DNA of 64,000 bases from Ideonella benzenivorans (GTDB taxonomy: Bacteria > Pseudomonadota > Gammaproteobacteria > Burkholderiales > Burkholderiaceae_C): positions 62,001 through 126,000 of the forward strand of contig NZ_JAGWCB010000001.1 in the NCBI RefSeq assembly GCF_020387415.1. Direction: 5' to 3'. The translations under genes were made by a program, and so were the position numbers. Below, in pieces: positions 4,019 to 49,248 of the stretch. Within the stretch, counting starts at the first letter, position 1. Each line of letters opens with the position of its first letter. The notes under the pieces were generated by a model. It made no database searches. It worked only from the letters and a program-made list of their open reading frames with translations, and had not been told where the DNA came from.

Positions 4019-4032
4019 TTGTGAACCCTGAG

Positions 4033-4599
4033 ATGAGCAAGGCCTTCACCAAGGAGACCGATGGCGCCGATGACGACGACGACACCGGTGGCCTGCCCCC
4101 GCTGCCTGCGGGCACCAAGAACTACATCACGCCGGCTGGCTATGCCCGGCTGCGGGCCGAACTGCTGAACCTGATCGATGTCGAGCGCCCGAAAATCGTC
4201 GAGATCGTCCATTGGGCGGCCTCCAACGGGGACCGCTCCGAGAACGGCGACTATCTGTATGGCAAGAAACGCCTGCGCGAGATCGACCGCCGCATCCGCT
4301 TCCTGACCAAGCGCCTGGACCTGGCCGAGGTGGCCGATCCCTCCGCCCACCACGGCAACGACCAGATCTTCTTTGGCGCCACCGTGACCTACGCCAACAG
4401 CAAGGGCGAGGAGCGAACCATCACGATCAAGGGCGTGGACGAGGTGGACCAGTTGGCCGGCGAGGTCAGCTGGGTGTCGCCGATCGCCCGTGCGCTGCTG
4501 AAGGCCCGCGAGGGCGACGAGGTCACCCTGACCACCCCGGGCGGGCAGGAGACGCTGGAGGTGCTGGCGGTGCGGTATCCAGCCCCCGCGGCCGGCTGA
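4033..4599 (+). CDS. greB: Transcription elongation factor GreB
   Basis: GreA/GreB family factor that rescues backtracked RNA polymerase by stimulating transcript cleavage through the secondary channel. The N-terminal coiled coil (residues 30-105) contains NGDRSENGDYLYGKKRLREIDRR with the conserved acidic tip, and the C-terminal FKBP-like domain has ARALLKAREGDEVTL. KRLREIDRRIRFLTKRL is GreB-like. I chose ATG 4033 (MSKAFTKETD) over the in-frame GTG at 4021 because that N-terminus is typical of GreB in this group. An acidic insert DDDDD follows. It is convergent with spoT, 22 bp away. Confidence 0.93.
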   Translation: MSKAFTKETDGADDDDDTGGLPPLPAGTKNYITPAGYARLRAELLNLIDVERPKIVEIVHWAASNGDRSENGDYLYGKKRLREIDRRIRFLTKRLDLAEVADPSAHHGNDQIFFGATVTYANSKGEERTITIKGVDEVDQLAGEVSWVSPIARALLKAREGDEVTLTTPGGQETLEVLAVRYPAPAAG

Positions 4600-4621
4600 G
4601 CCGCCAAGGGCCGGTGCCGGT

Positions 4622-28475: not shown

Positions 28476-28568
<93 letters not shown>

Positions 28569-28646: not shown

Positions 28647-28671
28647 GTTCCGCCAAGGTCCGTTAAGGTTC
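28647..28671 (+). repeat. 25-bp direct repeat, copy 2 (putative integrase arm site)
   Basis: Second copy of the repeat at 28573-28597 (22 of 25 bases identical). Confidence 0.5.
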
Positions 28672-28690
28672 GGCAAGAGCCGGGACTTTT

Positions 28691-28749
28691 TGGGGGCACA
28701 TTTGGGGGCAGGGAAGGGACTATGCTGGGGGCACGCTTCATGCCCCCAG
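28691..28749. repeat. TGGGGGCA repeat cluster before the integrase
   Basis: TGGGGGCA occurs at 28691, 28703 and 28726, and inverted as TGCCCCCA at 28741. The last two form the inverted repeat CTGGGGGCA/TGCCCCCAG (28725-28733, 28741-28749) ending 9 bases before the integrase ATG. CTGGGGGCACGC at 28725-28736 recurs exactly at 41272-41283 near the right end. Confidence 0.55.
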
Positions 28750-28758
28750 GAACAGCCC

Positions 28759-30042
28759 ATGCCCCTGACTGACACCGAGTGCCGTGCCGCCAAGTGCCCC
28801 GAGGACCGTGCTTTCATTCGCCTAGCCGATGCCGGCGGCCTCTACCTGGAAGTCACCAGGCCGGGGCCCCGCAATCCTGGTGGCTCCAAGCTGTGGCGCT
28901 GGAAGTACCGCTTCCTCGGCAAAGAGAAGCGCCTGGCCCTGGGCCACTATCCGCAGGTCAGCCTGGCTGAGGCACGGCGCGAGCACGCCAAGGCCCGGGA
29001 CACCCTGGCCCATGGCGTGGACCCTGGCGCCATGCGGCGGGAGGCCAAGGAAGCGCGCCTGCTGGCCATGGAGAACTCGTTTGAGTCGGTCGCCCGGCGC
29101 TGGTGGGAGAACTGGCGCAAGGGCGTGACCGAGCGCTACGGCAATTACGTGCTGGCCAGGCTGGAGGCGGATGCTTTCCCGGAGATCGGCGCTAAGCCGG
29201 TGGCCGACCTGAAGGCATCGGACTTCATCCGCATGGCCAAGAAGACCGAGGCACGCGGCGCCCCCGAGCTGGCCCGGCGGGTGCTGCAGTCCTCGGGGCT
29301 GGTGATGCGTTGGGCCATTGCCCACGAGTTGGCCCAGCGCAACCCAGTGACCGACGTGAAGCCGGGCGACTTCCTCCAGCCGCGGGAGGTTCGCAACTTC
29401 GCCCGGGTGGGGGCGGCGGATCTGCCGGACCTGATGCAGCGGATCAACGCCTATCAGGGGGCGGTGTTCACCCGCCTGGCCTTGAAGCTGATGGCGCTGA
29501 CCTTCGTTCGCACCTCGGAGCTAATCGAGGCCCAGTGGCAGGAGTTCGACCTGGAGGCGGCCGAGTGGCTGATTCCTCCGGAGCGCACCGGTCGCAAGGG
29601 ACGCAAGGGCGACCGCCGGCCGCACCTGGTGCCCTTGTCACCTCAGGCGCTGGAGGTGCTGCGCTTGCTGCAGGTGGCGCGCGGCGGGGCCGACTGCTGC
29701 ACCGGGCCGGCTCGCCTGTTCCCTGGTGAGCGCGACCACGACAAGCCCATGTCCAACGGCACCATCCTGAAGGCCCTGAAGGTGATGGGCTACCAAGGGC
29801 GGCAGACCGGCCACGGCTTCCGTGGCATCGCCTCCACGGCCCTCTATGAGATGGGCTACCGGGGCGAGGTGATTGAGGCCCAGCTGTCGCACGTGGACCC
29901 GAACAAGGTGCGGGCCGCCTACAACCATGCCCAGTACCTGGAAGAGCGCCGGCAGATGATGGGCGGCTGGGCCGACTACCTGGACCAGGTGCAGCGAGGT
30001 GGCAAGGTGATCCCGTTCCGGCAGGCGCGCAGCGCGGCCTGA
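28759..30042 (+). CDS. Tyrosine integrase (P4 type, DUF4102 arm-binding domain)
   Basis: A 427-residue site-specific recombinase. The N-terminal DUF4102 arm-binding domain (1-90: MPLTDTECRAAKCP, GGLYLEV, LWRWKYRFLGKEKRLALGHYPQVSLAEAR) is followed by a core-binding domain and the catalytic domain. Active-site residues are visible as Arg in LTFVRTSELIEAQW, HGFRG, His in QLSHVDPN and the Tyr nucleophile in RAAYNHAQYLEER. It should catalyse integration at and excision from tRNA-Ser. ATG 28759 begins the conserved N-terminus; upstream in-frame sequence is the tRNA. Confidence 0.95.
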   Translation: MPLTDTECRAAKCPEDRAFIRLADAGGLYLEVTRPGPRNPGGSKLWRWKYRFLGKEKRLALGHYPQVSLAEARREHAKARDTLAHGVDPGAMRREAKEARLLAMENSFESVARRWWENWRKGVTERYGNYVLARLEADAFPEIGAKPVADLKASDFIRMAKKTEARGAPELARRVLQSSGLVMRWAIAHELAQRNPVTDVKPGDFLQPREVRNFARVGAADLPDLMQRINAYQGAVFTRLALKLMALTFVRTSELIEAQWQEFDLEAAEWLIPPERTGRKGRKGDRRPHLVPLSPQALEVLRLLQVARGGADCCTGPARLFPGERDHDKPMSNGTILKALKVMGYQGRQTGHGFRGIASTALYEMGYRGEVIEAQLSHVDPNKVRAAYNHAQYLEERRQMMGGWADYLDQVQRGGKVIPFRQARSAA

Positions 30043-30142
30043 GTGTGCGGGGATTTTTGACCAAGGTGCCGCACGCTAGGTGCAGAAGTTCTAACTTTTG
30101 CGCCACCCACGCCAACCGCTCCAGAATTGGCTCTAAACATAC

Positions 30143-30172
30143 TTGCAATGCATTGTGAGCTAGGATCATAAT
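30143..30172 (+). promoter_or_regulatory. Promoter and palindrome of the serine recombinase gene
   Basis: TTGCAA (30143-30148) and CATAAT (30167-30172), 18 bp apart, make a good sigma-70 promoter in an AT-rich patch. The palindrome CAATGCATTG (30146-30155) overlaps the -35 box. Since an in-frame ATG at 30171 falls inside the -10 box, translation must start at 30207. Confidence 0.6.
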
Positions 30173-30206
30173 GAATACATATCAATTGAGCCAGACGGGG
30201 CACCCC

Positions 30207-30782
30207 ATGAGCCGCATCGCCTACTACCGCGTCTCCACCACGGACCAAAGCATCGAGAGCCAGCGCAATGCGCTGGGCGGTGGGTTCGCCAAGGAGTTCA
30301 GCGACGAAGGCATCAGCGGCGCCGTGCCGGCGGCCAAGCGCCCCGGCTTTGCAGCGCTGCTGCAGTACGCCCGGGAGGGCGACACCGTGTGTGTCTACGC
30401 CGTGGACCGCCTGGGCCGTGATGCCCTGGACGTGCAGGCCACCGTGCGCGGCCTGATCGAGCGTGGCGTGACGCTGGAGGTGCGCGGCCTGGGCACCATT
30501 GCCAAGGGCGTGGGCGAGCTGGTGCTGGCCGTGCTGGCCCAGGTGGCCGACATGGAGCGCCAGCGCATCGTGGAGCGCACCGAGCAGGGCAGGGCCACCG
30601 CCCGCCAGGCGCTGGCCAGCACCGGCCTGACACATCGGGGCAAGACCTCGCTGGGCCGGCCGGCCAAGGCGGACGCTGCTGCCGTGCGCACCTGGCGCCA
30701 GGACAACCGGGCCAGCATCGCCACCACCGCGGCGCACTTCGGCCTGAGCACGGCCACCGTCAAGCGCTACTGCACCGCCTGA
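30207..30782 (+). CDS. Serine recombinase (resolvase/invertase family)
   Basis: A 191-residue small serine recombinase. The catalytic domain starts SRIAYYRVSTTDQS (Ser nucleophile in YRVST) and has SDEGISGAVPAAKRPGF, VYAVDRLGRDALD (conserved Arg) and VLAQVADMERQRIVERT; the E helix leads to a C-terminal HTH (SIATTAAHFGLSTATVKRYC). It could resolve dimers of the excised element or invert a segment. ATG 30207 begins the conserved sequence and lies downstream of the promoter at 30143-30172. Confidence 0.93.
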   Translation: MSRIAYYRVSTTDQSIESQRNALGGGFAKEFSDEGISGAVPAAKRPGFAALLQYAREGDTVCVYAVDRLGRDALDVQATVRGLIERGVTLEVRGLGTIAKGVGELVLAVLAQVADMERQRIVERTEQGRATARQALASTGLTHRGKTSLGRPAKADAAAVRTWRQDNRASIATTAAHFGLSTATVKRYCTA

Positions 30783-31567
30783 GGCGCAGGCACACCCTCA
30801 GCCCGGCGACCGCCGGGCTTCGTCCATCTAGCTTTGATCCAGGGCCCGCAGGGGCCCTTTGTCATTGGGCGGCCGGCTTGGCCGGTGGCGGGGAGGGGAC
30901 TACGTTCGCGCTGCCCAGGGGTAGGGCTCCAGGGCAGGAACAGGCGGCGGCGTACCACGTAGGGCGGGACGGCGGGAACACCCACACCGTTCAGAGGAAA
31001 AGTGCAGGTGTGGCTAGCCTCAATGGGCGGACGACAGGCGACGGAATGACGGGACGGCACCGTGAACAGGACGGGAACGGCGGGAACAGGAGAGAGTGAG
31101 AGAGTCCTTCAGTTCAAGTCACTGCTTCAGCTTCAGCACCAGGCCCGATGGCTCGCCTGGTCGATAGGCCAGCCCTATGGCCATGCACGGCCAGGCAAGG
31201 GCAGGGGGGGAGTCAAAGTCTGCGGCCCATGGCCCGGAAACCGATCCCCCAGCCAAATTTTTGGGCGCGGGGGTTTCGGGGTGGGGGGGTACAGCGGGAA
31301 TTTCAGGGGGTGGGGCGTTGTCTGGACATCGTCAGCCCGTCGCCGAACCGCTGCGGCCCTCGCCGGTCTTCCCTGGAATGCTGCGGCGAAGGGTTCACCC
31401 GTGCCGCCAACCAGCGGCGGCGAGCGAGTGCGGACGTCCGCTTTGAGGATCAGTTGATGAGCCTTAGGATGGCAGCGCACCACGCCACCGCCCGCTGATC
31501 ACGGGCGGCCAGTCCGGCCCCCGCCCGGCGGCGAGGTGCACTCACCTTGCGGGGCTGTGGGGAATCC
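30783..31567. other. 785-bp region without a convincing gene; left iteron cluster
   Basis: Short open frames here on both strands lack conserved features and compatible starts. The region contains hairpins at 30800-30819 (AGCCCGGC/GCCGGGCT) and 30841-30858 (AGGGCCC/GGGCCCT, then TTT), which may end the recombinase transcript. It also has a hairpin CCACACC/GGTGTGG (30982-31013), CGGGAAC iterons at 30973, 31072 and 31081, and a copy of GCGGACGTCCGC at 31430. It may include an origin or regulatory locus. Confidence 0.5.
30964..31090. repeat. Left iteron cluster sharing 19 bp with the right end
   Basis: GCGGGACGGCGGGAACACC (30964-30982) is found exactly, inverted, at 41170-41188. CGGGAAC also occurs at 31072-31078 and 31081-31087. 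The paired distant clusters recall the P4 ori and crr loci; that function is inference. Confidence 0.55.
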
Positions 31568-32377
31568 ATGTCGGAACAGGTTAAACGCACAACCTCTCTC
31601 TACCTCAGGGCCGATGACTCGCCCGATGGCGCACTGGCTCGCCTGGCAGATGTGGTGCGCCACGTCATGCGCGAAAAGGGCATCCCGCTGCGGCCTGCCG
31701 CGCGCTTGATTGCCGAGCGACTTGGCGACCACTGGAAGGTGGCCACGGTACTGGCAAGCGATCAGGCCGCCAACAACGCGCCTTCGTTTTTGCATTTCAT
31801 GGACAGGGACTTTGACCGCAGCTATCGAACATGGGTCGAGGAGCAGACCGAGCGCGCCGAATTTTTCGCTGCCTCGCGTGCGGACACGGCTAGGAGGCTC
31901 CCCTGTGGCCGGAGCACATTGCATCCTGTCCTATGGAAGAGTCGGCATCATCTCTTCGACTGGACCGATGAGCTAACGAGACTGCTGCCGCCAGTCATCT
32001 GGATCGCTGAAATGTGGGGAGGTAGGGCCACGCGAATTGAAGACCTCTATCTTTCATCCGCATCCACATGGTGCATCCGCGCAAGCCTGGCGGCCGAGCT
32101 GTTCGGGTACGGTGACCATCAGATGGACGCCGGCACCGGGCCCGATGAAGGCGAGCTCACTGGCGTCGATCGGGAAGTTCGGATCGTGCAGGATTACTGG
32201 ACTGAGAAAGAGCGTGGAACGAAGAGCGCCAGTGGGGTGGTCGGCGAGCGCTATGGCATTTCCGGCAGGTGGGTCACATCGCTGGCGAAGAAGCACGCCG
32301 ATGTGCCGGGCGGCAAGGCGGCTGCGCCAGAGACGCTGGAGCAGGCGTGGCACGCCAAGCCGCGCAAGTCGGCTTGA
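31568..32377 (+). CDS. Element-encoded hypothetical protein, possible DNA-binding C-terminus
   Basis: A 269-residue protein I do not recognise. It starts MSEQVKRTTSLYLRAD after a weak ribosome site (in-frame ATG 31547 is less likely). The middle has aromatic-rich segments (WTDELTRLLPPVIWIAEMWGG). Near residues 220-250, DYWTEKERGTKSASGVVGERYGISGRWVTSLAKKH resembles a helix-turn-helix (GVVGERYGISGRWVTSLAK). Placement next to the AlpA-like gene and iterons would fit a regulator or replication accessory, but this is only inference. Confidence 0.6.
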   Translation: MSEQVKRTTSLYLRADDSPDGALARLADVVRHVMREKGIPLRPAARLIAERLGDHWKVATVLASDQAANNAPSFLHFMDRDFDRSYRTWVEEQTERAEFFAASRADTARRLPCGRSTLHPVLWKSRHHLFDWTDELTRLLPPVIWIAEMWGGRATRIEDLYLSSASTWCIRASLAAELFGYGDHQMDAGTGPDEGELTGVDREVRIVQDYWTEKERGTKSASGVVGERYGISGRWVTSLAKKHADVPGGKAAAPETLEQAWHAKPRKSA

Positions 32378-32383
32378 TCTAAC

Positions 32384-32505
32384 GGGGCCAGCACTTCCCG
32401 GGACTTCCCGCCCGCCTTCTACTCGGGCGGTCTTCACAGAGTGACAGCGGACCGCCACGTCTCACGGCGGAATCGGGAAGTTGTCGGGAAGTGCTTCCCG
32501 GCCCC
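32384..32505. repeat. Iteron-bearing inverted repeat and hairpin upstream of the AlpA-like gene
   Basis: ACTTCCCG occurs at 32393 and 32403, and inverted (CGGGAAGT) at 32474 and 32485. The outer arms begin GGGGCC (32384) and end GGCCCC (32505), so the whole is a large imperfect inverted repeat. Between them a 7-bp hairpin CCGCCCG/CGGGCGG (32408-32430) could act as a terminator for the upstream gene. Operator or origin are the likely roles. Confidence 0.5.
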
Positions 32506-32576
32506 ATCGTTCCTTCCAAGCCCGCCGCGGTCCGAAGCGTTCCGGCGGGTTCCGTCTCAACTTGGAAGGAGCCCTC

Positions 32577-32825
32577 ATGTCCTCTCTTGTCGCTTTGGCC
32601 TCGGTGAAGCAGGCGCCTGAAGCCGCAAACCGTGACCGTCTCATTCGCCGTCCCGAGGTGCTGCGCATCCTTGGGGTGAGCAAGACCACTTGGTATGGCA
32701 TGGTGGCCCGTGGTGAAGCGCCACGCGGGTTTCGCATCAGCGCCCGTTGCGTGGGGTGGAGTGAGCGGGCCATCTATGACTTCGTGAAGCAGCGGCAGCA
32801 GGGCGCTGGGCCGAGGGAGGTCTGA
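32577..32825 (+). CDS. AlpA-like small regulator/excisionase (MerR-type HTH)
   Basis: An 82-residue protein with the AlpA-type fold: NRDRLIRRPEVLRILGVSKTTWYGMVARGEAPRGFRISARCVGWSERAIYDFVKQR. In phage P4-type elements AlpA-like proteins switch on integrase expression and aid excision. The strong site GGAAGGAG six bases before ATG 32577 supports this start. The tape-measure gene follows after 2 bp, so both are on one transcript. Confidence 0.85.
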   Translation: MSSLVALASVKQAPEAANRDRLIRRPEVLRILGVSKTTWYGMVARGEAPRGFRISARCVGWSERAIYDFVKQRQQGAGPREV

Positions 32826-32827
32826 CC

Positions 32828-34990
32828 ATGCCCATTGCAAAGCTGACCATCGACCTGGAAGCCCGCCTGGCCAACTTCCAGTACAACCTCGACAAGGCCG
32901 GCCACATCGCCGAACAACACGCCGCCGCTATCCAGGCTGATTGGGAGCGGATGCAGAAGACGGCCGAGTCTCTTGGCGTGGCCATTGGCAGTGCCTTCTC
33001 CTTGGGAACCATCGCGGCCTTCATCCGCAACAACGCCAACGCGGTGGACGCGCTCAATGACGTGGTGGACGCCACGGGTAGCACGGTGGAGAGCATCAGC
33101 GCCCTGGAGGCCCTGGCCCTGCGCACTGGCGATAACCTGGATCTGGTCTCCGACGTTCTGGTGAAGTTCAACGGCGTGCTGAAGGACGCGGACGGCAAGA
33201 ACGGCGTGAGCCAGGCCCTGGAAGCCATCGGCTTGCACGCCGAAGAGCTGCGCCAGCTGGACCCGGCCGAGGCGCTGCGCCAGACCGCGGTAGCGCTGTC
33301 TCGCTACGCTGACGATGGCGACAAGGCCCGCCTCATCCAAGAGCTGTTCGGCAAGAGCGCCAAGGAAGCAGCCCACTTCCTGCACGACCTAGCAGATGCC
33401 GGTCAGCTGGTGGCCACAACCACGGCCGAGGAAGCTGCACGGGCCGAGGAGTTCAACAAGAAGCTGGCGCAGTTTCAGACGAACGTCACTCTCTCGGCCC
33501 GGGCCATCGTGACTGAGATGCTGCCGGCACTGAACGATTGGGCAGAGAAGCTCAACAAGGTGACGTCCGGCAAGGCCAACTTCTGGGACACCTACACCAC
33601 GGAGATGGGATCTGAGGTGTCTTCTCTGAAGCTGCAGGCAGCTGTGAGCCAATTGGAGGACTTGTCTGACGCGCTGAACAAGGACCCAGGCAACAGCGCG
33701 CTGCAGAAGCGGGTAGCCGAGCTGCGGGCCGAGATCCCCGGTCTGCAACGTGAGGCCGCCCAGGCCAACGAAGCGCTGAAGCGTCTGGTGGGGCAGGACG
33801 CCCCGGCCGACTACAGCCACGAGGGACGCAACGCGCCCAAGCTGTCGCTGGCCGGTGTGACGTTTGGCGGGGCCGGTGGCGCCGGGGGCCGGACAGGCGG
33901 CGGCAAGGCCAAGACCGAGAAGCCTGACTTTGTGGGGCCGGAGATTCCCGAGAGCTACGTCCAGGCCTTGCGCGCGCTGGAGCAAACCGACTCGGTGAAG
34001 ATTGAAAACCTGCGTCTGCAGCTGCAGTACCTGGCGAACCTCAAGTCCAGCGGGGACAACCGCTTGGGTATTGATGAGGCCATCCTCAACCTGGAGCAGA
34101 GTATCCAGAACCTCGACCCGGCACAGAAGCACCTGCAGGATCTGAATGCAGCCGTTGACCAGCTGCTGTACGGCAAGGCCGACAAGGTGGCTGAGCTGAA
34201 TGAACAGCTGTCCATCCTGCAGGAGCGGCTGAGCAGCGGGGCGATTTCCGAAGGGCAGTTCGACCAAGCCGCCAAGTCGATCTATGGCGACATGGACCAG
34301 TTGAACCCACAGGTGAAGAAACAAGCCGACGAGTGGACCACCTTCACCGACCAGGCGCAGCGCAACATCCAGAACAGTATGAGCGGCTTCCTCTCCAAGG
34401 CGATGAAGGGCGACTTCAAGAGCATCGAGACCAGCTTCGTGGACATGCTGAACAACATGGCGGCGGAGGCCCTGGCTGCAAAGATCGGCAATGCCATCTT
34501 CGGCACAGGCGGTGTGGCTGGCGCTGGTGCAGCCGGGGCCGGTGGCTCCTGGTTGAGCAGCGCCATTGGCTGGGGCGCTTCGCTCTTCGGGGGCTTTTCC
34601 ACGTCCTCGGGTGCTGCCGTGGCCAACGCGCTGCCGGGCGACTCGCTGGACAACTTCATCGGTGTGATGGGGCTTGGGCTGGCCAACGGCGGGCCTGCGC
34701 AGGCCGGTGGGATCCACCCCATCGTGGAGCGAAATGAGCCTGAGGTTCTCGGCATCGGCAACAAGAGCTACCTGCTCATGCCGCAGAAGGCAGGCCTCGT
34801 GACACCGCTGCAGCCTGCCCGCAGCAGCGGTGCCGATGGCAGCGGGGGCCGTGCGGACGTCCGCAACGGCGGCACCATCAACCTGACGCAGCACATCACC
34901 ACGCCACCCGGTACCAGCCGCGCCATGCAAGAGCAGATGGCGACGCGGGCTTATGCCGCCTCGGTGCGCGCCTTCTCTCGCCACGGGTGA
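32828..34990 (+). CDS. Phage tail tape-measure-like protein
   Basis: A 720-residue protein. The N-terminal half matches tape-measure style: helical MPIAKLTIDLEARLANFQYNLDKAG, SISALEALALRTGDNLDLVSDVLVKFNGVLKD, EALRQTAVALSRYADDGDKARLIQELFGKSAKEAA. A central coiled coil spans about 280-330 and 380-500. A Gly/Ala-rich hydrophobic stretch at about 555-605 is the kind that inserts in membranes. The C-terminus has NGGPAQAGGIHPIVERNEPEVLGI, typical of tape-measure tails. Such proteins set tail length and help DNA entry. No other virion gene is present in the element. Alternatively it could be a tape-derived effector. Confidence 0.8.
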   Translation: MPIAKLTIDLEARLANFQYNLDKAGHIAEQHAAAIQADWERMQKTAESLGVAIGSAFSLGTIAAFIRNNANAVDALNDVVDATGSTVESISALEALALRTGDNLDLVSDVLVKFNGVLKDADGKNGVSQALEAIGLHAEELRQLDPAEALRQTAVALSRYADDGDKARLIQELFGKSAKEAAHFLHDLADAGQLVATTTAEEAARAEEFNKKLAQFQTNVTLSARAIVTEMLPALNDWAEKLNKVTSGKANFWDTYTTEMGSEVSSLKLQAAVSQLEDLSDALNKDPGNSALQKRVAELRAEIPGLQREAAQANEALKRLVGQDAPADYSHEGRNAPKLSLAGVTFGGAGGAGGRTGGGKAKTEKPDFVGPEIPESYVQALRALEQTDSVKIENLRLQLQYLANLKSSGDNRLGIDEAILNLEQSIQNLDPAQKHLQDLNAAVDQLLYGKADKVAELNEQLSILQERLSSGAISEGQFDQAAKSIYGDMDQLNPQVKKQADEWTTFTDQAQRNIQNSMSGFLSKAMKGDFKSIETSFVDMLNNMAAEALAAKIGNAIFGTGGVAGAGAAGAGGSWLSSAIGWGASLFGGFSTSSGAAVANALPGDSLDNFIGVMGLGLANGGPAQAGGIHPIVERNEPEVLGIGNKSYLLMPQKAGLVTPLQPARSSGADGSGGRADVRNGGTINLTQHITTPPGTSRAMQEQMATRAYAASVRAFSRHG

Positions 34991-34994
34991 CACC

Positions 34995-35378
34995 ATGACA
35001 TTTGACGCAACCTTTGATCCCTATTTCGACGGGACACCGGATGTGCCCGCGCCTGCGCAGGGCGCACCCCGCTACATGCACGACCTGGTGGACCGCGCCG
35101 CGGCGATCTTGCGGGCGCGCTGGCCTGCCACGGTGGGCCACTTCTCCCTGTGGGCCGATGGCGAGGAGCGGCAGTACGTCGCCCGCATGGAGTGGCCGGC
35201 CGATCAGCCGGGCCCGCGTGTCCTGGTGTTCGATGGCCGCAGCGGCAACTACGTGTGCCGCTCGCTGCCTGCGGAGGACGAGCTGACCACGCTGGATCTG
35301 TCCTTCCTGGACACCACGGCCTATCCCCACGACCTGGTGGACCTGCATCTCCACGAAGAGCGGCAGGCGGGGGGCTGA
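34995..35378 (+). CDS. Element-encoded hypothetical protein
   Basis: A 127-residue acidic protein starting MTFDATFDPYFDGTPDVP, 4 bp after the tape-measure stop. It has a mixed pattern FSLWADGEERQYVARMEWPADQPGPRVLVFDGRSGNYVCRSL that suggests a small beta-rich domain. I do not recognise the family. Tight spacing suggests co-expression with AlpA and the tape-measure gene, and it may act with the latter. Confidence 0.6.
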   Translation: MTFDATFDPYFDGTPDVPAPAQGAPRYMHDLVDRAAAILRARWPATVGHFSLWADGEERQYVARMEWPADQPGPRVLVFDGRSGNYVCRSLPAEDELTTLDLSFLDTTAYPHDLVDLHLHEERQAGG

Positions 35379-35514
35379 ACATGCGGCACGCTGCAGCCAG
35401 CGCCAGCGCTTCCTTGCGCCTTGGCTTTGCCCTACACTGCCTGCAACCGCTGCACATGCAGTGGCCACTGGCGAAAGCCAGCGGGATTGGCGTCCCGGAA
35501 AACGAAGGCGCGCG

Positions 35515-35536
35515 GCCGCCTCAAGAGCGGCTTTTT
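35515..35536 (+). terminator. Leader terminator between seqA and the C4-like RNA
   Basis: A 5-bp stem GCCGC/GCGGC (35515-35519, 35527-35531) followed by TTTTTCTTT. In P4, CI RNA pairing favours termination in the leader; position here is the same. Confidence 0.55.
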
Positions 35537-35568
35537 CTTTGCGCGCAGCGCTCAGGCTCCAATTCCAT

Positions 35569-35642
35569 GGCGGCCCGGGTGGGGGCACCTTCGGGTGCGC
35601 CGGTCCCTTCGTTCCGGTACGCCAACCCTGCTTTGGGCCGCC
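35569..35642 (+). ncRNA. Putative C4/CI-like antisense RNA
   Basis: A 74-nt segment closed by a perfect 8-bp stem, with an internal GCACC-UUCG-GGTGC hairpin and an exposed seqB block (35606-35625). seqB can pair with upstream seqA and downstream seqC on the same transcript. This is the known design of P4 CI and P1/P7 C4 RNAs, which cause premature termination or block translation to hold the element quiescent. Assignment to the Rfam C4 family is from memory. Confidence 0.7.
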
Positions 35643-35684
35643 GCCCTTCATTGGCGTGGAGGGTGGCGGTTGATGACCGCAACG

Positions 35685-35690
35685 AAGGAG
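35685..35690 (+). promoter_or_regulatory. Shine-Dalgarno site inside seqC
   Basis: AAGGAG, 8 bases before ATG 35699, overlaps the AACGAAGG block that pairs with seqB of the C4-like RNA. Pairing would hide the site. Confidence 0.65.
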
Positions 35691-35698
35691 CCAACATC

Positions 35699-36010
35699 AT
35701 GGCTGGTAATCCCCTGGGCGCCGCTGCGCCTGTCCTCACCCCTGGCGCCACGCTGCGCCCTTTCTATCGCGTCCCCGCGTCCACCCGCACCCGTCGCTTG
35801 CAAGGCGTCTGCCTGGCTGGTGACCTGCTGCTGAGCGTGTACAGCTCGCGCCAGGCCGGCGAGCCGCTGGCCGTGTCCATTGCGCTGCAGGACACCGACA
35901 GCGAGCGCATCAGCCGCATCACCGCCGCCCAGGCCCGCGCACTGGCGCAGGCTTTCGAGCAGGCCGCCGATGCGGCCGAGTCCACCACCAGCGCCAGCCG
36001 GGGGGACTGA
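35699..36010 (+). CDS. Element-encoded hypothetical protein, first gene under C4-like RNA control
   Basis: A 103-residue protein with no recognised family. It starts MAGNPLGAAAPVLTPG with AAGGAG at an 8-base spacing. A compact beta region TRTRRLQGVCLAGDLLLSVYSSRQAGEPLAVSIALQDTD is followed by a C-terminal helix ARALAQAFEQAADAAE. It is the first reading frame after seqC, the place held by short leader genes such as kil/eip in P4-type elements, but sequence does not support naming it. The next gene starts 2 bp later. Confidence 0.65.
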   Translation: MAGNPLGAAAPVLTPGATLRPFYRVPASTRTRRLQGVCLAGDLLLSVYSSRQAGEPLAVSIALQDTDSERISRITAAQARALAQAFEQAADAAESTTSASRGD

Positions 36011-36012
36011 CC

Positions 36013-36522
36013 ATGGCCATCACCAAGACACCCGGGGCAAGCGCCACCGGTGAAGCCGCTGCATTGCCTCGCCTCGCCTCGGTGCAGGCCCCGAATCCGT
36101 CTGCGCAAGGTGAACATGACATGCGCCCGAAGACTGCTTCCAGGCTGGTGGGCACCTTCGACCTGCCCAGGTTGATGGACAGCCTGCTGGACCGTGCCAG
36201 CGAAAACCTCACCGACGAGGATCTGGAGAGCCTTGAGGGCCACGCAGAGCAGGCTGAGAACCTGATGGGGCACATCGCTGCCTTCACCAATGGGCTGGCC
36301 TGCATGGTGGCGAGCGACGACCGCGACGGAAGGAGGGGCAGCGGTTCGTTCCAGACCGGTGCAGACCTGGCTGATCTGCTCTTCTGCGTGTCCGCCTTGG
36401 CGGAACAAGCGGGGGCTCTGTCCCGCGTCGCTGGCTGGGCAGATGGCCAACGATTCCTGCGAGCACATGCCGCTCGGCATGGCATTTCAACCCTGTCCAA
36501 CTCTCAAGGAGAACTGCAATGA
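36013..36522 (+). CDS. Element-encoded hypothetical protein
   Basis: A 169-residue, mostly helical protein. After a low-complexity first 35 residues, DLPRLMDSLLDRASENLTDEDLESLEGHAEQAENLMGHIAAFTNGLACMVASD and LADLLFCVSALAEQAGALSRVAGWADGQRFL give a predicted helical bundle. ATG 36121 (MRPKTASR) is an alternative start that would remove the disordered part. The stop overlaps the next start (ATGA at 36519). No family recognised. Confidence 0.6.
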   Translation: MAITKTPGASATGEAAALPRLASVQAPNPSAQGEHDMRPKTASRLVGTFDLPRLMDSLLDRASENLTDEDLESLEGHAEQAENLMGHIAAFTNGLACMVASDDRDGRRGSGSFQTGADLADLLFCVSALAEQAGALSRVAGWADGQRFLRAHAARHGISTLSNSQGELQ

Positions 36523-36875
36523 AGCGAGACATCCCCCGTGACTTGGCCGCAGCGGCAGAAGCCAAGCCGGCCCCCACTGTTCAAGCGCTGGGCAACGCCC
36601 TGCAGAACGCTGATGGCCTGGTGCAAGAGGCGGCCGACGTGGTTAGTGCCCTGGCCTATGCGCAGCGGCTCATGCTCGCTGATCCGTGGCTGCGGGCCAG
36701 GCCCCGCGTCCTGGAGAAGCATGTCGGCGTGCTGGCGCAGCTGATGGAGGACAAGGTAGCCCATCAGGTCAGCGACCTGATCAACATCGAAGCCGAAGGC
36801 CTCGGTTGCGCGTGGACCGAGGAAGGGCGGTCGGGCCGGCCCACAGTTTCGTTTCAGCAGGGGGCACGCGCATGA
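36519..36875 (+). CDS. Element-encoded hypothetical protein
   Basis: A 118-residue helical protein: KPAPTVQALGNALQNADGLVQEAADVVSALAYAQRLMLADPWLRARPRVLEKHVGVLAQLMEDKVAHQVSDLINIEAE. Its helix pattern (repeated hydrophobics, no membrane segment) resembles the protein just upstream in style. AAGGAG lies 8-13 bases before ATG 36519. It overlaps both neighbours by 4 bases. Function unknown. Confidence 0.6.
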   Translation: MKRDIPRDLAAAAEAKPAPTVQALGNALQNADGLVQEAADVVSALAYAQRLMLADPWLRARPRVLEKHVGVLAQLMEDKVAHQVSDLINIEAEGLGCAWTEEGRSGRPTVSFQQGARA

Positions 36876-37387
36876 CTGGACTGCAGGCACAGGGCCGCCT
36901 GAAGGCCTATGGCGTGAAGTTGACGGGCACCCATGAGCACGTGGCTGTCGCTGTGAATAGCGCGCCGGCCACCCTGGCTGTGCTGGACTCCGATGGGGGC
37001 ATCGTGTGCCAGGGCGAGGTTGTGGCGGCCGTGGCGGCCTTGGTGAGTGTCAATGGCTACAGGCAGTTCCTGCGTGCAAAGGGCTGGGAGCGCATCGGCT
37101 CTGAGATCAAGGAGCCCGCTGCCCTGTTTGCTGTCGCGCGAATCAGCACCGTTTCCCACGAGGGTTTGCGGGTGGAGCTGCTCGATCCCTCTGGTGGTGT
37201 GAGCTCATGCCCTGGCGCGCTGGCCATCCTTGATGGAACAGGGCGAGTGATCGTGTCCGGTCAGGACGTCGCGGACGAGGTTGAGGCCGTCATGGTCAGA
37301 GGCTATCGGGACTACTTGAAAGCCGGCGGCTGGCTCAGGACCCTTTCCGCCCCGCCCGCGCAGCCTGCGCAAGACACCGAAGGCTGA
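36872..37387 (+). CDS. Element-encoded hypothetical protein with two copies of a 38-residue unit
   Basis: A 171-residue protein containing a repeated unit. Copy 1 is about residues 34-72 (LAVLDSDGGIVCQGEVVAAV..NGYRQFLRAKGW) and copy 2 about 117-156 (LAILDGTGRVIVSGQDVADEV..RGYRDYLKAGGW). It starts MTGLQAQGRLKAYGVKL, matching the opening of the next gene's product (MKTGRLQAHGIDVAV). It is coupled to the previous gene by ATGA. The repeat looks like a small beta-hairpin plus helix; function unknown. Confidence 0.65.
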   Translation: MTGLQAQGRLKAYGVKLTGTHEHVAVAVNSAPATLAVLDSDGGIVCQGEVVAAVAALVSVNGYRQFLRAKGWERIGSEIKEPAALFAVARISTVSHEGLRVELLDPSGGVSSCPGALAILDGTGRVIVSGQDVADEVEAVMVRGYRDYLKAGGWLRTLSAPPAQPAQDTEG

Positions 37388-37454
37388 TCGCTGATCGACC
37401 CGGCTAACCCTGTCACGTCGAACCGTGGCCCCAAAACCTGAAGGAGAGAGAACG

Positions 37455-37949
37455 ATGATCGGACCCATGAAAACAGGGCGCCTGCAGGCCCATGGCATCG
37501 ATGTGGCGGTGTCGTTGGAGGGGCAGTTGACCCTGACAGCCCAAGGCCGGCCTGCAGAGGTGGCAGTGCTCAACGATGCCGGTGCCGTGGTGGCTCGCGG
37601 CACCGTGGTTGCCAACACGGCCGCCTTCGCCACCTTCAGAGCCTACTGGCTGTTTCTGTGCGGCAAGCCGCTGGCCGAGGGTGGCCCGCCTCCCCTGGCG
37701 CCTGTGGACGTTGTTGCCTTGCTCCAGCTCATGGAGGGTCGGCCGCCGCTGGAATCCCTGGGCGCGGTGGCCGCTCTGCCCGGGCAATGGGCCGTGCTCG
37801 GGGCCGATGACCAGGTGCTGGCATCCGGCCTCTTGGTTGCCGAGGAGCTCGAAGCTCACTTTGCCAATGCCATGCGTGCGCGGCTGATCGCGCAGGGGCC
37901 GCTGATGCCCGACCAGCCCGTGGCACCAACACCGAAGAACTACCACTGA
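37455..37949 (+). CDS. Element-encoded hypothetical protein, paralogue of the upstream gene
   Basis: A 164-residue protein paralogous to that at 36872-37387. It shares the start GRLQAHGIDVAV and unit 1 EVAVLNDAGAVVARGTVVANTAAFATFRAYWLFL, and has a more divergent unit 2 (QWAVLGADDQVLASGLLVAEELEAHFANAMRARL). ATG 37455 was chosen because AAGGAGAGAG lies 5-14 bases upstream; an in-frame ATG at 37425 lacks a site. It precedes the primase-helicase by 36 bp. Confidence 0.65.
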   Translation: MIGPMKTGRLQAHGIDVAVSLEGQLTLTAQGRPAEVAVLNDAGAVVARGTVVANTAAFATFRAYWLFLCGKPLAEGGPPPLAPVDVVALLQLMEGRPPLESLGAVAALPGQWAVLGADDQVLASGLLVAEELEAHFANAMRARLIAQGPLMPDQPVAPTPKNYH

Positions 37950-37985
37950 CCAGCGTCCGCAGCTGGCGGCCACCCCCCCACACCC

Positions 37986-40900
37986 ATGTCCAACAGCAAG
38001 CCCAAAGGCGCTGCAACACCGCGCCACCCCATCACCCCCGAGCTGGTGCGCCAGGCACTGGGCCACATCCCGCCAGACGTGGACCGGGACACCTGGGCCA
38101 GGTTGGCCATGGCCATCAAGAGCGAATTCCCGGACGTCGCCGGCTTTGACCTGTGGAACGACTGGAGCGCCCAGGGCCAGGGCTATGACGAGCACGCCGC
38201 CCGGGACACCTGGCGCAGCGTCAAGGCAGGCGGCAAGGTGACCATTGGCACGCTGTTCGGCATGGCCAAGGACCGAGGCTTTAGCTTCCCGGCGGCGGGG
38301 GATGCGCGGACGTCCGCAGAACTGCAGGACGAAGCCGAGCGGGCCCGCTTGGCTGAGCAGAAGCGCCAGCAGCGCGAGGCCGAGGAGGCCGAGTACAGCC
38401 GCCGCGCCGACCAGGCCGCGCGGGATGCGGTGAAGCTGTGGGCCAGCGCCAGCGAGCAGGGCGCCAGCCCCTACCTGCAGCGCAAGGGCGTGGCAGGCCA
38501 CGGCGTGCGCTACCTGGTGGACGGGACGCTGCTGGTGCCCATGCGCGACCAGGCGGGCCAGTTGCAGAACCTGCAGCGCATCGCGCCGGCCAGGCCCACG
38601 GCCGAGCAGGAAGCCCGCGGCATGCGGGAAAAGCGCTTCATGGCTGGGGGCCGCAAGACGGGCCTGTGGCACCTCATCGGCCAGGTGCAGACGCCCGCAG
38701 AGGGGCAAGCCGCACCGCCCGTGCTGCTGCTGGCCGAGGGCTACGCCACGGCCGCCAGCCTGCATGAGGCCACTGGGCATCCTGTGGCAGTGGCCTTCGA
38801 CGCCGGCAACCTGGTGCACGTGGCCAAGGCGCTGCGCGCTCTTCACCCCGGGGCCCTGCTGCTGGTGTGCGGTGACGATGACCACGACACAGAGACCCGC
38901 ACCGGCAAGAACCCCGGCCGAGAGAAGGCCGCCAGCGCGGCGCGGGCGGTGGCGGTGGAAGGCGCTGCACTGGCTGGCGCTGTTTTCCCGGATGGCCTGC
39001 CCGAGGGCGGCAGCGACTTCAACGACCTGGCGCAGCATGCCGGCGCGGCCGAGGTGGCCCGCCAGGTGGCTGCGGCCCTGGCGCACCCGACCGTGCCAGG
39101 GCCCCGCCGTGGCACCAGGCCGGCCGCAGGCGGCCCGAACGGGGCCGAGGATGAGGCCAGGGTGCTGGATGGCGACGCCAGCGCCACAGCCCAGGACCGG
39201 GACGATGACCAGGACGGCGAGCAGACCGAAGCCGGTGGCGGCCAGCCTGATCCCTTCGTGTTGGATGAGCGGGGTGTGTGGCACGTACCCCGCGATGCCG
39301 AAGGCAACACCAAGCGGCCGGTGTGGCTGTGTGCTCCGCTGCGCATCACCGCCCGCACCCGGGCCGACGATGCCAACGGCTGGGGCCTGCTGCTGGAGTT
39401 CGCCGACCTCGACGGCAACGCCAAGACCTGGGCCATGCCCTCGGCGCTGCTGAGCGGGGAGGGGGCCGAGTGGGCCGCCCGCCTGCGGGACATGGGCCTG
39501 GACATGGGCCATGGCACCCGGGTGCGCAACCTGGTGGGCCAGTACATCAACAGCCGGTATCCGGCCGACCGGGTGACCTGCACCGACCGCCTGGGCTGGC
39601 ATGCTGGCGGGGTGTTCGTGCTGCCCACCCGGTGCATCAGCGCCAGCCCGGAGCGGCGCTACGTCTATCAAAGCGAGTCCGGCATTGATGACCAATACCG
39701 GCGGGCCGGCGAGCTGGGCGACTGGCAGCGCACCGTGGCCGCCCTGTGCGAGCACAACAGCCGGCTGGCCTTCGGGGTGTGTGCGGCCCTGGCCGGCGCG
39801 CTGCTGCAGCCCACGGGCGCCGAAAGCGGCGGCTTCCATTTCCGGGGCGGCTCCAGCCAGGGCAAGACCACCACACTGCGGGTGGCCGCCAGCGTGTGGG
39901 GCCGCCCCACCTACATGCAGACATGGCGGGCCACCTCCAACGCCATCGAGGGCACAGCCATGCAGCACTGCGACGGCGTGCTGATCCTGGACGAGATTGG
40001 CCAGGTGGACGGCCGCGAGCTGGGGGAGACGGTCTACATGCTGGGTAACGCCCAGAACAAGAACCGCAGCACAGCCAAGGGCTTCAACCGGCGCCGGCTG
40101 AGCTGGCGCATCCTGTGGCTGTCGTCAGGCGAGAAGAGCATGGCGGACCACATGGCCGAGGCTGGCAAGCGAGCCATGGCGGGCCAGGAAGTGCGGATGG
40201 TGGACATCCCGCTGGATGCTGGCGCTGGCATGGGGGGCATTGAGGAACTCCACGGCCACGAGGGCGCGGGCGACCTGGCCGAGTCGATCACCAAGGGCGC
40301 GGCGCGGGTCTACGGCAGCGCGGGCCGGGCCTGGCTGGAATGGCTGGCCCCGCGATTCGAGGGGCTGCCGCAGCTGCTGGCCCCGCAGATCGAGCGCCAG
40401 CGGGCGGCCCTGGTGCCCGAAGTGGCCAGCGAACAGGTGCGCCGCGTGGGCGGGCGCTTTGCACTGGTGGCGGTGGCGGGCGAGCTGGCCATTGAAGCCG
40501 GCATCCTGCCGTGGCCGGTGGGCCACGCGGCATGGGCGGTGCGTGAGTGCTTCAACGCCTGGCTGGCGGCCCGTGGCCACCTGGACAACGGCGAAGAGGT
40601 GGCCATGTTGCGCCAGGTGCGTGCCTTCCTGGAGACGAATGGCGAAGCGCTGTTCACCTGGCACCACCGGGGCATGGAGGACCACAAGCCCAACACCCCA
40701 CTGCGCGCCGGCTTCAGGATCATGATGGGCGGCGATGGCGAGCCGATCAAAGCCGACTCGGCCACCGACTATCTGGAGCGCACCGGCAGCGCCAGCCAGG
40801 AGCGCAAGGAAGCGCTGGTGGACTACATGATTTTCCGCGAGCGGTTCCGGGAGATCTGCAAGGGCTTCGACCCCTCGGCCGTGGCCACATTGCTGCGCCA

Positions 40901-41015
40901 GCGCGGCCACCTGGTGCACGAGAAGGACCGGCTGATGAACAAGCGTCGCCTGCCCGGGATGGGCCTGACGGCGTACTACCACGTCAAGGCGTCGATCTTC
41001 GCCGACACCCTGTGA
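37986..41015 (+). CDS. Replication primase-helicase (PriCT-2, Toprim-like, DUF927)
   Basis: A 1009-residue replication protein. Residues about 15-85 form a PriCT-2 domain (VDRDTWARLAMAIKSEFPDVAGFDLWNDWS). A Toprim-like domain is near 243-300 (LLLAEGYATAASLHEATG, VCGDDDHDT). After a linker, a DUF927 superfamily helicase domain contains Walker A GGSSQGKTTTL near residue 621 and Walker B VLILDEIGQVD near 664. This plays the part of the P4 alpha protein: origin binding, priming and unwinding. The C-terminal 200 residues could bind the iterons. Last gene of the element. Confidence 0.9.
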   Translation: MSNSKPKGAATPRHPITPELVRQALGHIPPDVDRDTWARLAMAIKSEFPDVAGFDLWNDWSAQGQGYDEHAARDTWRSVKAGGKVTIGTLFGMAKDRGFSFPAAGDARTSAELQDEAERARLAEQKRQQREAEEAEYSRRADQAARDAVKLWASASEQGASPYLQRKGVAGHGVRYLVDGTLLVPMRDQAGQLQNLQRIAPARPTAEQEARGMREKRFMAGGRKTGLWHLIGQVQTPAEGQAAPPVLLLAEGYATAASLHEATGHPVAVAFDAGNLVHVAKALRALHPGALLLVCGDDDHDTETRTGKNPGREKAASAARAVAVEGAALAGAVFPDGLPEGGSDFNDLAQHAGAAEVARQVAAALAHPTVPGPRRGTRPAAGGPNGAEDEARVLDGDASATAQDRDDDQDGEQTEAGGGQPDPFVLDERGVWHVPRDAEGNTKRPVWLCAPLRITARTRADDANGWGLLLEFADLDGNAKTWAMPSALLSGEGAEWAARLRDMGLDMGHGTRVRNLVGQYINSRYPADRVTCTDRLGWHAGGVFVLPTRCISASPERRYVYQSESGIDDQYRRAGELGDWQRTVAALCEHNSRLAFGVCAALAGALLQPTGAESGGFHFRGGSSQGKTTTLRVAASVWGRPTYMQTWRATSNAIEGTAMQHCDGVLILDEIGQVDGRELGETVYMLGNAQNKNRSTAKGFNRRRLSWRILWLSSGEKSMADHMAEAGKRAMAGQEVRMVDIPLDAGAGMGGIEELHGHEGAGDLAESITKGAARVYGSAGRAWLEWLAPRFEGLPQLLAPQIERQRAALVPEVASEQVRRVGGRFALVAVAGELAIEAGILPWPVGHAAWAVRECFNAWLAARGHLDNGEEVAMLRQVRAFLETNGEALFTWHHRGMEDHKPNTPLRAGFRIMMGGDGEPIKADSATDYLERTGSASQERKEALVDYMIFRERFREICKGFDPSAVATLLRQRGHLVHEKDRLMNKRRLPGMGLTAYYHVKASIFADTL

Positions 41016-41082
41016 TCTGACCCGCACGCCGGCCAGCCGGCGCCATCAGCAGGGCCCGAAAGCCGGGCCTCAAGCCCCGAAG

Positions 41083-41122
41083 GGGTGTTCCCGTCCAAAC
41101 AGGGCGACGGGAACACCCTTTT
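41083..41122 (+). terminator. Intrinsic terminator after the primase-helicase gene
   Basis: Perfect 13-bp arms GGGTGTTCCCGTC (41083-41095) and GACGGGAACACCC (41106-41118), then TTTT. Both arms also contain the iteron word. Confidence 0.8.
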
Positions 41123-41196
41123 GCATTGGCGGGAACGGAAAACTCTTTTGCTGACAGTGGGTTACTGAAGGTGTTCCCGCCGTCCCGCTGTTCCCG
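41087..41196. repeat. Right iteron cluster (CGGGAAC)
   Basis: CGGGAAC at 41108 and 41130; inverted GTTCCCG at 41087, 41173 and 41190. 41170-41188 is the exact inverted copy of 30964-30982. Confidence 0.55.
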
Positions 41197-41271
41197 TCGA
41201 TTCTGAAGCCAAGTCGAAATGGAAAAAGAGGAACAGGACGCAAAATACACGAAACATGGATCGGGGCACGG

Positions 41272-41283
41272 CTGGGGGCACGC
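41272..41283 (+). repeat. Right-end copy of CTGGGGGCACGC
   Basis: This 12-mer is identical to 28725-28736 upstream of the integrase. It lies about 70 bp inside the right attachment repeat. A shorter GGGGCAC precedes it at 41263. Confidence 0.5.
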
Positions 41284-41350
41284 GACTTCCTGATACCCCG
41301 GAAACCCGCGCCAATGCTGGGTTTCCAGCCTTTTTACAGCTGACTCCCTC

Positions 41351-41358
41351 CCGCCAAA
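41351..41358 (+). other. Right attachment site core candidate
   Basis: CCGCCAAA matches the tRNA-Ser 3' end plus two bases. The 5 bases following lead straight into a strong terminator, as expected of DNA that originally followed the tRNA. Confidence 0.55.
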
Positions 41359-41362
41359 TGAG

Positions 41363-41391
41363 AACGCCACCGCAGCCGCGGTGGCGTTTTT
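41363..41391 (+). terminator. Displaced native terminator of tRNA-Ser
   Basis: 11-bp arms AACGCCACCGC (41363-41373) and GCGGTGGCGTT (41378-41388) with a 4-base loop, then TTTC. It also lies just past the convergent histidine kinase gene. Confidence 0.75.
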
Positions 41392-41406
41392 CTTGGTGCG
41401 TCCGAC

Positions 41407-47833: not shown

Positions 47834-49248
47834 GGCCGGCGCCGCAGCACCCAGCCCTGCAGGGCCGTGAGGCCGGTGCCGGCCACCAGCAGCCCGACGG
47901 TGGCCGCCGTCCAGAAGCCGGGGGCGCCCTGCAGGCGGTCCGGCACCTGCCCCAGGACATTGAAGGCCAGCAGATAGCCGCCTCCCAGCCCGACGCCCCA
48001 CAGCGACACGGCATACACCACCATCGGCGCCGTGGCGACCCGCCAAGCCCGCAGCGTGAAGGCGACGACCGTCTGCATCGCATCCGCCACATGGAAGATG
48101 GCCAGCCAGGCCAGCAGGGGCAGGGTGGCGGCCACCACCTGGGCATCGTCGGTGTAGAGCTGCAGCACCGGGGTGCGGGCCAGGTAGACCGCGCTGCCGA
48201 CGATGACCGCCAGGCCGCAGCCCAGCCACAGGCCGTGCCAGCCCAGGCGGCGGGCGTCCTTCAGCTCGCCGGCGCCGATCTGCTGCGCGACCAGGGTGCT
48301 GGTGGCATTGCCCAGCGACATCGGCAGCATGAACATCAACGAGATCAGGTTCATCGCAATCTGGTGCCCGGCCACCGGCGTGGTGCCCAGGCGGGCGATG
48401 AACAAGGCCATGAAGCTGAAGCCGGTCACCTCAATCAGAAAGCCCGCGCCCATGGGCAGGCCCAGGCGCAACAAGCCCCACAGCGCGGGACGGTGCGGCG
48501 GCCGCAGACCCTCGCCGAACAGGCGAAAGCGGGCATAGAACCCGTCCCGGCGCAGCCACAGCCAGGCCCCCAGCACCTGCAACCAAAGCACCGCGGCCGT
48601 GGCCCAGCCGCAGCCGGCCACGCCCAGAGCGGGCAGGTGCAGGGCCGGCACGCCCGCCACCAGGGCCACCGTCAGCGGCACCTTCAGCAACAGACCGCCC
48701 AACTGCAGCAACATCACCGGCTTGGGGCGCGAGACCGCCGTGCTGAAGGCGCGGAACACCGCGAAGATCAGCGCGGCCGGCAAGGCCCAGGCCAGTGCAT
48801 GCAGGTAGCCCCGGGTGCGCTCCGCGACCTCCGGCGTGGCCTGGGCCATCCACAGGAAGGGCTCGGGCTGCCAGAGCAGCAGCGCGCCCAGGGCCGACAA
48901 CACCAGGGCCAGCCAGATGCCCTGGTGGGCCTGGTCGCCGGCGGCCTCATGCCGGCCGGCGCCGTGCAGTTGACCGGTGACGGGGGAGACCGCCAGCACC
49001 ACGCCCATGAAGCCGATGATCACCGTCATGTAGGCCGCCGAACCGACGGCGAAGGCCGCCAGGTCCACCGCCGAGTGGCGGGCCACGACCAGGGTGTCCA
49101 CGGTGTTGAAGGCAAGCACCGCCAGCTGACCGATGTAGACCGGCCAGGCCAGGGGCAGGATGCGCCGCACGCTCGCCAGCCAGCGCTGCAGCGGCGAGGC
49201 GACGGGGCGCGCGGTGGTGGCGACGTCGGTCACGGAGGGCGCGCTCAT
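47809..49248 (-). CDS. MATE-family multidrug efflux transporter
   Basis: A 479-residue inner-membrane transporter with 12 predicted segments, of the NorM/MATE type: LAWPVYIGQLAVLAFNTVDTLVVARHSAVDLAAFAVGSA at the start and the matching repeat RLGLPMGAGFLIEVTGFSFMALFIARLGTTPVAGHQIAMNL halfway. It exports cationic drugs by Na+ or H+ antiport. ATG 49248 overlaps the stop of the upstream DUF3717/DUF1289 gene (ATGA), so they are an operon. Upstream in-frame codons are shadows of that gene. Confidence 0.92.
   Translation of the reverse strand: MSAPSVTDVATTARPVASPLQRWLASVRRILPLAWPVYIGQLAVLAFNTVDTLVVARHSAVDLAAFAVGSAAYMTVIIGFMGVVLAVSPVTGQLHGAGRHEAAGDQAHQGIWLALVLSALGALLLWQPEPFLWMAQATPEVAERTRGYLHALAWALPAALIFAVFRAFSTAVSRPKPVMLLQLGGLLLKVPLTVALVAGVPALHLPALGVAGCGWATAAVLWLQVLGAWLWLRRDGFYARFRLFGEGLRPPHRPALWGLLRLGLPMGAGFLIEVTGFSFMALFIARLGTTPVAGHQIAMNLISLMFMLPMSLGNATSTLVAQQIGAGELKDARRLGWHGLWLGCGLAVIVGSAVYLARTPVLQLYTDDAQVVAATLPLLAWLAIFHVADAMQTVVAFTLRAWRVATAPMVVYAVSLWGVGLGGGYLLAFNVLGQVPDRLQGAPGFWTAATVGLLVAGTGLTALQGWVLRRRPQAVAASA

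Follow-up and report, generated by a model that had tools for sequence, protein, structure and literature searches.

The window, the 64,000-nucleotide stretch of DNA analysed here, very probably carries, as far as the identity and design of the locus go, the C4 antisense-RNA immunity switch belonging to a P4/AH14b-like satellite element. The C4 switch in the window clearly adds one more example to an established system and RNA family, its biology being already explained by P1, P4 and AH14b; it also puts such a switch at the satellite-like replication operon of a relative within the Burkholderiales. C4-type antisense switches are thought to keep satellite-like elements of this kind silent. Beyond the plain new example, two observations are less expected: the two-block codes of C4 loci are near-unique, and one relative has four cassettes in series before its DUF927 gene. 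At the sequence level the switch is supported by a covariance-model match, four-block complementarity, coevolution of code and targets, and a spacing nearly equal to that of P1. The locus has the following components:

35433-35438, + strand: TACACT, a possible (weak) -10 box of a leader promoter, with similar hexamers in relatives
35465-35537, + strand: isrK-like leader RNA with a1 in a hairpin loop, b1 and a terminator (RF01394, 41.1 bits)
35487-35493, + strand: target block a1, TTGGCGT, complement of C4 a' (ACGCCAA), placed like the annotated a1 of P1
35501-35508, + strand: target block b1, AACGAAGG, complement of C4 b' (CCTTCGTT)
35514-35532, + strand: terminator-like hairpin followed by a T run (terminator scan)
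35563-35648, + strand: C4 antisense RNA (Rfam RF01695, 73.1 bits, cutoff 45, E 2.3e-12 in 64 kb)
35606-35625, + strand: seqB of the C4 RNA, CCTTCGTTCCGGTACGCCAA, with the recognition blocks b' (CCTTCGTT) and a' (ACGCCAA)
35651-35657, + strand: target block a2, TTGGCGT, within a predicted hairpin; the 3' end of C4 forms its 5' arm
35681-35688, + strand: target block b2, AACGAAGG, overlapping the Shine-Dalgarno sequence

The match to RF01695 lies 28 bits above the curated cutoff and covers the whole model (1-87). The RNA is closed by a perfect 8-bp stem between 35569-35576 (GGCGGCCC) and 35635-35642 (GGGCCGCC). The C4 fold by itself is unexceptional given its composition: z is -1.62, and equally good folds arise in 15 of 200 shuffles. 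The a' and b' blocks have perfect 7-8 nt matches to all of a1, b1, a2 and b2, and b2 overlaps AAGGAG, the ribosome-binding site of the gene that comes next (ATG at 35699). In exact-match scans of the 4.49-Mb host genome, the pattern TTGGCGT-N0-30-AACGAAGG occurs three times, as a1/b1, as a2/b2 and as seqB read reversed; the backwards control of the pattern has no occurrence, and trans targets with both blocks were found nowhere else in that genome.

The first-pass annotation, made from this DNA by eye, had described an RNA closed by a perfect 8-bp stem, a terminator hairpin between seqA and the RNA, and a position before a DUF927 helicase operon, all of which we recover. Its seqC, said to pair with seqB and to overlap AAGGAG, likewise holds, as the two blocks a2 and b2. 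Its count of 19 of 20 seqB bases paired by seqA (35487-35508) is right; the pairing is, however, not one uninterrupted run, having one mismatch and a two-base bulge (7+6+6). The C4-type assignment is supported by the Rfam model match and by target blocks that track the C4 loop across relatives (see below), which are two of the checks it had named.

The leader resembles isrK, although its 41.1 bits (E 1.5e-7 in 501 bases) miss the RF01394 cutoff of 50; the c4-a1b1 model RF03163 gives 15.5 bits in the 501 bases around C4, against a cutoff of 46.7. The 1.2 kb scanned contain two terminator-like sites versus 0.6 expected. A consensus scan finds no sigma-70 promoter in the window leader. In a separate scoring its best promoter-like score is 7.0, below the shuffled mean of 7.5, and the 93 loci scored average 8.75. 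Several relatives have hexamers of the TACACT/TACATT type some 30-34 nt ahead of a1; in the window the distance is 48 nt. Downstream, the region of the a2 hairpin (35640-35710) has a predicted fold with z -3.03, and in the predicted cis fold of 35560-35720 b2 is buried, its probability of being unpaired lying between 0 and 0.15.

The locus lies in an inserted element next to a tRNA gene. In two congeners (L109, L110) the tRNA-Ser(cga), its terminator and a kinase gene are adjacent; in the window about 12.7 kb lie between. Its principal features are:

28476-28566: tRNA-Ser(cga)
28650-41395: approximate extent of the inserted element, a bracket without exact junctions, about 12.7 kb relative to the two congeners
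28759-30042, + strand: tyrosine integrase beside tRNA-Ser (Pfam)
32577-32825, + strand: AlpA-like regulator (PF05930, 3.4e-7)
32828-34990: tape-measure-like gene, 720 aa, next after the AlpA-like gene (PHROG tail length tape measure, 6.5e-14)
35699-36010, + strand: first gene behind C4, 103 aa, with relatives behind C4
36013-36522, 36519-36875, 36872-37387 and 37425-37949, + strand: four further small genes (open frames)
37986-41015, + strand: replication gene, 1009 aa, with PriCT_2, Toprim_3 and DUF927 domains (Pfam, PHROG)

The gene order is: integrase, resolvase, an uncharacterised gene, the AlpA-like gene, the tape-measure-like gene, another uncharacterised gene, the C4 locus, five small genes, and the DUF927/PriCT_2/Toprim_3 gene, which matches DUF927 at 2.2e-86 (Pfam) and DNA primase at 1.3e-99 (PHROG). 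As in P4-like satellites, there is an integrase at a tRNA, an AlpA regulator, a primase/helicase and no complete virion gene set; besides the tape-measure-like gene, PHROG recognises no virion gene among the ten of twelve element genes searched. Host-like terminator sequence runs on to about 28650. Repeats of TGGGGGCA stand on both sides of the element (28691-28736 and 41271-41283), and are possibly integrase arm sites. A 13-base repeat (28724, 41271) looks more like an integrase arm site than like the attachment core.

The 103-aa gene has no Pfam, NCBIfam or PADLOC match and one weak PHROG match without known function (0.0097). Relatives of it stand directly behind C4 elsewhere: in L105/L163 (84% over 75 aa, 77% over 100 aa), L011/L146 (51-52%) and L168 (57% over 56 aa). 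As to the four further small genes, the first two lack a Pfam or PHROG match, none matches NCBIfam, and there is one weak PADLOC match (0.0045). The tape-measure match recurs in 31 of 299 family genomes, the window's own included; there are no relatives in the phage collection and none confirmed in the general genome contigs. The best tape-measure relatives (L135-L137) sit beside frames that resemble tail genes by eye.

Close DUF927 relatives with a C4 upstream are found in a genus-mate (L102), in a contig of Methylibium rhizosphaerae, a Burkholderiales species (L167), and in a Pseudomonadota MAG (L168). The genus-mate reaches the RF03163 c4-a1b1 cutoff (48.9 bits), and the test for all four blocks is positive also for L167, L168 and L169. 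A Pfam scan of 43 of the 52 large frames behind C4, from 23 loci, has DUF927 in 6 of the 43, among the matches listed (the best 25 of 54 families). DUF927 is seen at 21 loci in viral contigs, the matches spanning no more than about 340 residues, at 29-44%. The C4-DUF927 element of L168 (5556-14470) lies beside a tmRNA gene and has a major head protein gene (PHROG 4.3e-50) and a tape-measure gene, the latter a 37% relative of the window's that is also behind C4 and DUF927; this could be a capsid-encoding satellite.

By the Rfam model C4 is present in 7 of 16 genomes of the genus, in 39 of 299 genomes of the family sample (38 over the cutoff) and in 18 of 274 of the class sample. From 102 distinct C4 rows we used 100, leaving out a partial one (G053:C20:5613-5685, 31.2 bits) and G569:C9:1700-1785, which was examined only with the L101 cassette array, outside the 100-locus set. 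The swap tests cover 90 of the 100 loci, after 7 near-duplicates and 3 with short flanks were dropped, and count as a block match a perfect one of at least 7 nt. All four blocks fit their own C4 at 50 of the 90 loci, versus 6 of 8010 swapped pairs; therefore, code and targets coevolve. Block by block, own matches are seen at 85 (a1), 67 (b1), 83 (a2) and 67 (b2) loci, and among the 8010 swapped pairs at 1473 (18%), 1102 (14%), 620 (8%) and 356 (4%), respectively. The downstream blocks a2 and b2 jointly match their own C4 at 74 of 100 loci, versus 43 of 9900 swaps. The codes themselves vary, for example CTTCCAA/TTGGAAG and CCTGTGT/ACACAGG at L002 and TCGCCAA/TTGGCGA at L003.

When each locus is tested with the loops of the 89 others, a median of 1 foreign loop binds its upstream 180 nt as well as the own loop does, and a median of 7 its downstream 90 nt; two or fewer foreign loops equal the own loop at 57 of 90 loci upstream and 27 of 90 downstream. 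For the window these numbers are 0/89 upstream and 7/89 downstream, and its four blocks rank at 0.08, 0.04, 0.16 and 0.13 among the swaps (best 4-16%). The window's own ranks being modest (0.04-0.16), the strength therefore lies in the set of loci.

At 84 of 99 loci C4 is followed, after 40-65 nt, by a start codon with a Shine-Dalgarno-like site. The 150 nt preceding C4 contain a terminator-like hairpin at 43 of 90 loci, versus 17 of 354 control stretches. Of the 85 loci with a1, 61 have it in the loop of a hairpin whose perfect stem measures 4 bp or more, a count without a control. The arms of the a2 hairpin (83 loci) have mean energies of -19.5 kcal/mol with their own partner, -15.1 when swapped and -11.1 when shuffled; per locus the median fraction of equally good swaps is 0.12, with 5% or less at 33 of 83 loci. 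A fold of the alignment recovers three inner pairs of this hairpin, with covariation, and the outer stem rests on the energy comparison; a simple test for the presence of the hairpin is unspecific, as 367 of 449 shuffled controls also pass. In these predicted structures the C4 3' strand has two possible partners, from which we infer that C4 folding and a2 presentation would compete.

The 74 loci with readable a2 and b2 form 71 groups by reciprocal cross-matching, and 27 groups by a'; a one-way match to at least one other locus is seen for 18 of the 74. A direct block count, which depends on block boundaries, gives 73 distinct pairs and 35 a' blocks among the 74. The large natural code set predicts which elements should be mutually immune. 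In the literature searched we found no publication on C4 code diversity across many loci or on tandem C4 cassettes, an absence that is no proof. We also considered whether shared codes are depleted among C4 loci of one genome, and this is unsupported: cross-matches number 2 of 220 ordered pairs within genomes (one pair, the near-duplicates L041/L059) versus 41 of 9680 between genomes, so that co-resident codes differ no more than codes elsewhere. In one 2.7-Mb genome (G053) eleven C4 loci, of twelve rows, were examined (L015, L066, L069, L071, L072, L075, L082, L083, L087, L091 and L096), and no pair among them cross-matches in both a' and b'.

The array in L101 (G569:C9, 1700-3092) lines up four C4 cassettes in tandem, every one with an a1/b1-like leader and a2/b2 of its own; no two have the same a', and three have the same b'. 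A DUF927 gene lies behind it (3350-5062, 1.6e-46) and an AlpA gene ahead (953-1147, 1.4e-13). It is conceivable, if short of probable, that the two-block code (a', b') is fast-changing, with almost one immunity type per element; that stacked cassettes with different codes, as in G569:C9, could silence several rivals in trans; and that, as the C4 3' arm pairs either inside C4 or with the a2-presenting strand, maturation and target presentation may exclude each other.

For the window we infer by analogy that the C4 RNA would stop leader transcription and hide the ribosome site of the first gene. Transcription would start upstream of a1 and the C4 RNA would be cut out of the leader transcript; its a'/b' would pair at two places, with a1/b1 of the next leader transcript, which would favour premature termination at or close to the hairpin 35514-35532, and with a2/b2, which would mask the ribosome site ahead of the first gene. 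The replication operon, whose last gene is the DUF927 gene, would be kept off; a newly arriving element of identical code would be silenced in trans. The promoter, expression, RNA processing, the balance of termination versus translation block, and immunity itself are here modelled on P1, P4 and Gifsy-1, and may be taken as presumptive. Weighing against this reading are the c4-a1b1 and isrK scores under their cutoffs, the lack of promoter support in the window, the modest ranks of the window's own pairings, and the terminator-like hairpin seen at just 43 of 90 loci.

The main rival for the sign of the leader's action, again by analogy, comes from Gifsy-1: as with IsrK, the terminated a1/b1 RNA might act in trans on the read-through mRNA and turn translation on, the whole being an activator circuit. 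We regard this as unlikely, while allowing that the a1/b1 effect may differ in sign. The isrK model covers 35465-35537, though under its cutoff; activation by a short leader RNA is reported for IsrK in Salmonella (PMC4825925); and b2, buried in the predicted cis fold, could be relieved by free a1/b1 RNA that occupies C4. However, C4/CI is described as repressing P1 and P4, whose layout is the same (PMC12197685, PMC4825925), and activation and repression could coexist.

Retaining C4-mediated repression as the preferred reading, one might still ask whether the element has decayed and the locus is a remnant in it, matching in sequence but no longer operating as a switch. The lack of a supported promoter in the window, the mismatch and bulge in the A-B pairing and the lone tape-measure-like gene point that way; against them stand the perfect fit of all four blocks to C4 and the integrase, AlpA and 1009-aa replication genes, all still open frames, and we consider decay distinctly improbable. 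That the locus is a chance GC-rich structure without relation to C4 could draw on the unremarkable C4 fold, but it has practically no probability, being contradicted by the model score, the four-block statistics and the uniqueness of the two-block pattern to this locus in the genome.

The prototypes compared by sequence are P1, P4 and AH14b. The P1 record (NC_005856) has a1 at 48255-48261, b1 at 48269-48276, C4 at 48343-48419, a2 at 48423-48429, b2 at 48452-48459 and icd from 48470, hence the same order of a1, b1, C4, a2, b2 and start codon as the window, with b2 just before the start codon. The spacings in the window and P1 are 14 and 14 from a1 to b1 (start to start), 30 and 29 from a2 to b2 (start to start), and 11 and 11 from the end of b2 to the ATG. 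P1 scores 68.8 bits for C4, 51.0 for c4-a1b1 (over the cutoff) and 35.1 for isrK, which like that of the window is under the cutoff. Its a2 hairpin region folds similarly but more weakly, and its recognition letters differ. Further, the C4 of P1 controls icd-ant (antirepressor), whereas the operon in the window consists of small uncharacterised genes and the DUF927/Toprim replication gene.

P4 (NC_001609; C4 74.9 bits, c4-a1b1 44.1, under the cutoff, isrK 60.8, over it) resembles the window in that the four-block test is positive, that b2 falls on a Shine-Dalgarno-like site, and that the element has an integrase, a primase and an excisionase/regulator gene. It differs in having the alpha primase where the window has the DUF927 gene, and in carrying psu, sid and delta, no such family being among the matches of the ten window proteins searched. 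The Gifsy-1 IsrK/STnc1160 pair comprises a leader with a terminator and then a stable RNA sharing complementary sequence, IsrK being called a structural homologue of P4 SeqA (PMC4825925); it shares with the window the a1/b1-type leader with terminator, but controls orf45-anrP, its reported action being activation.

AH14b, a Pseudomonas satellite (KU708005; C4 89 bits; c4-a1b1 28.8 and isrK 48.8, both under the cutoff), shares with the window an integrase, AlpA, C4, small genes, a Toprim primase, a helicase and, by the same test, all four blocks. Its helicase is related to the window's replication protein (36% over 67%); primase and helicase are, however, two genes in AH14b and one in the window, and AH14b has a tail-assembly-like gene where the window has a tape-measure-like one. 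The AH14b paper describes induction, by mitomycin, and shared capsids, and the word 'antisense' is absent from its main text (PMC4936722). In AH14b (L195) the C4 match (3957-4043, 89 bits) lies inside a frame annotated as hypothetical protein AH14b_p06 (3771-4253), which may be an immunity leader and not a gene. The first-pass annotation had placed the locus outside enterobacteria, which is so; as a novelty this does not stand, given AH14b of Pseudomonas and a 2010 survey that lists c4 (RF01695) in 'Proteobacteria, phages' (PMC2864571). It had also called the locus P4-type while likening it to the P1/P7 design, and both fit: P1, P4 and AH14b share the four-block result of the window, and 'P4-type' and 'P1/P7-type' therefore name the same design here.
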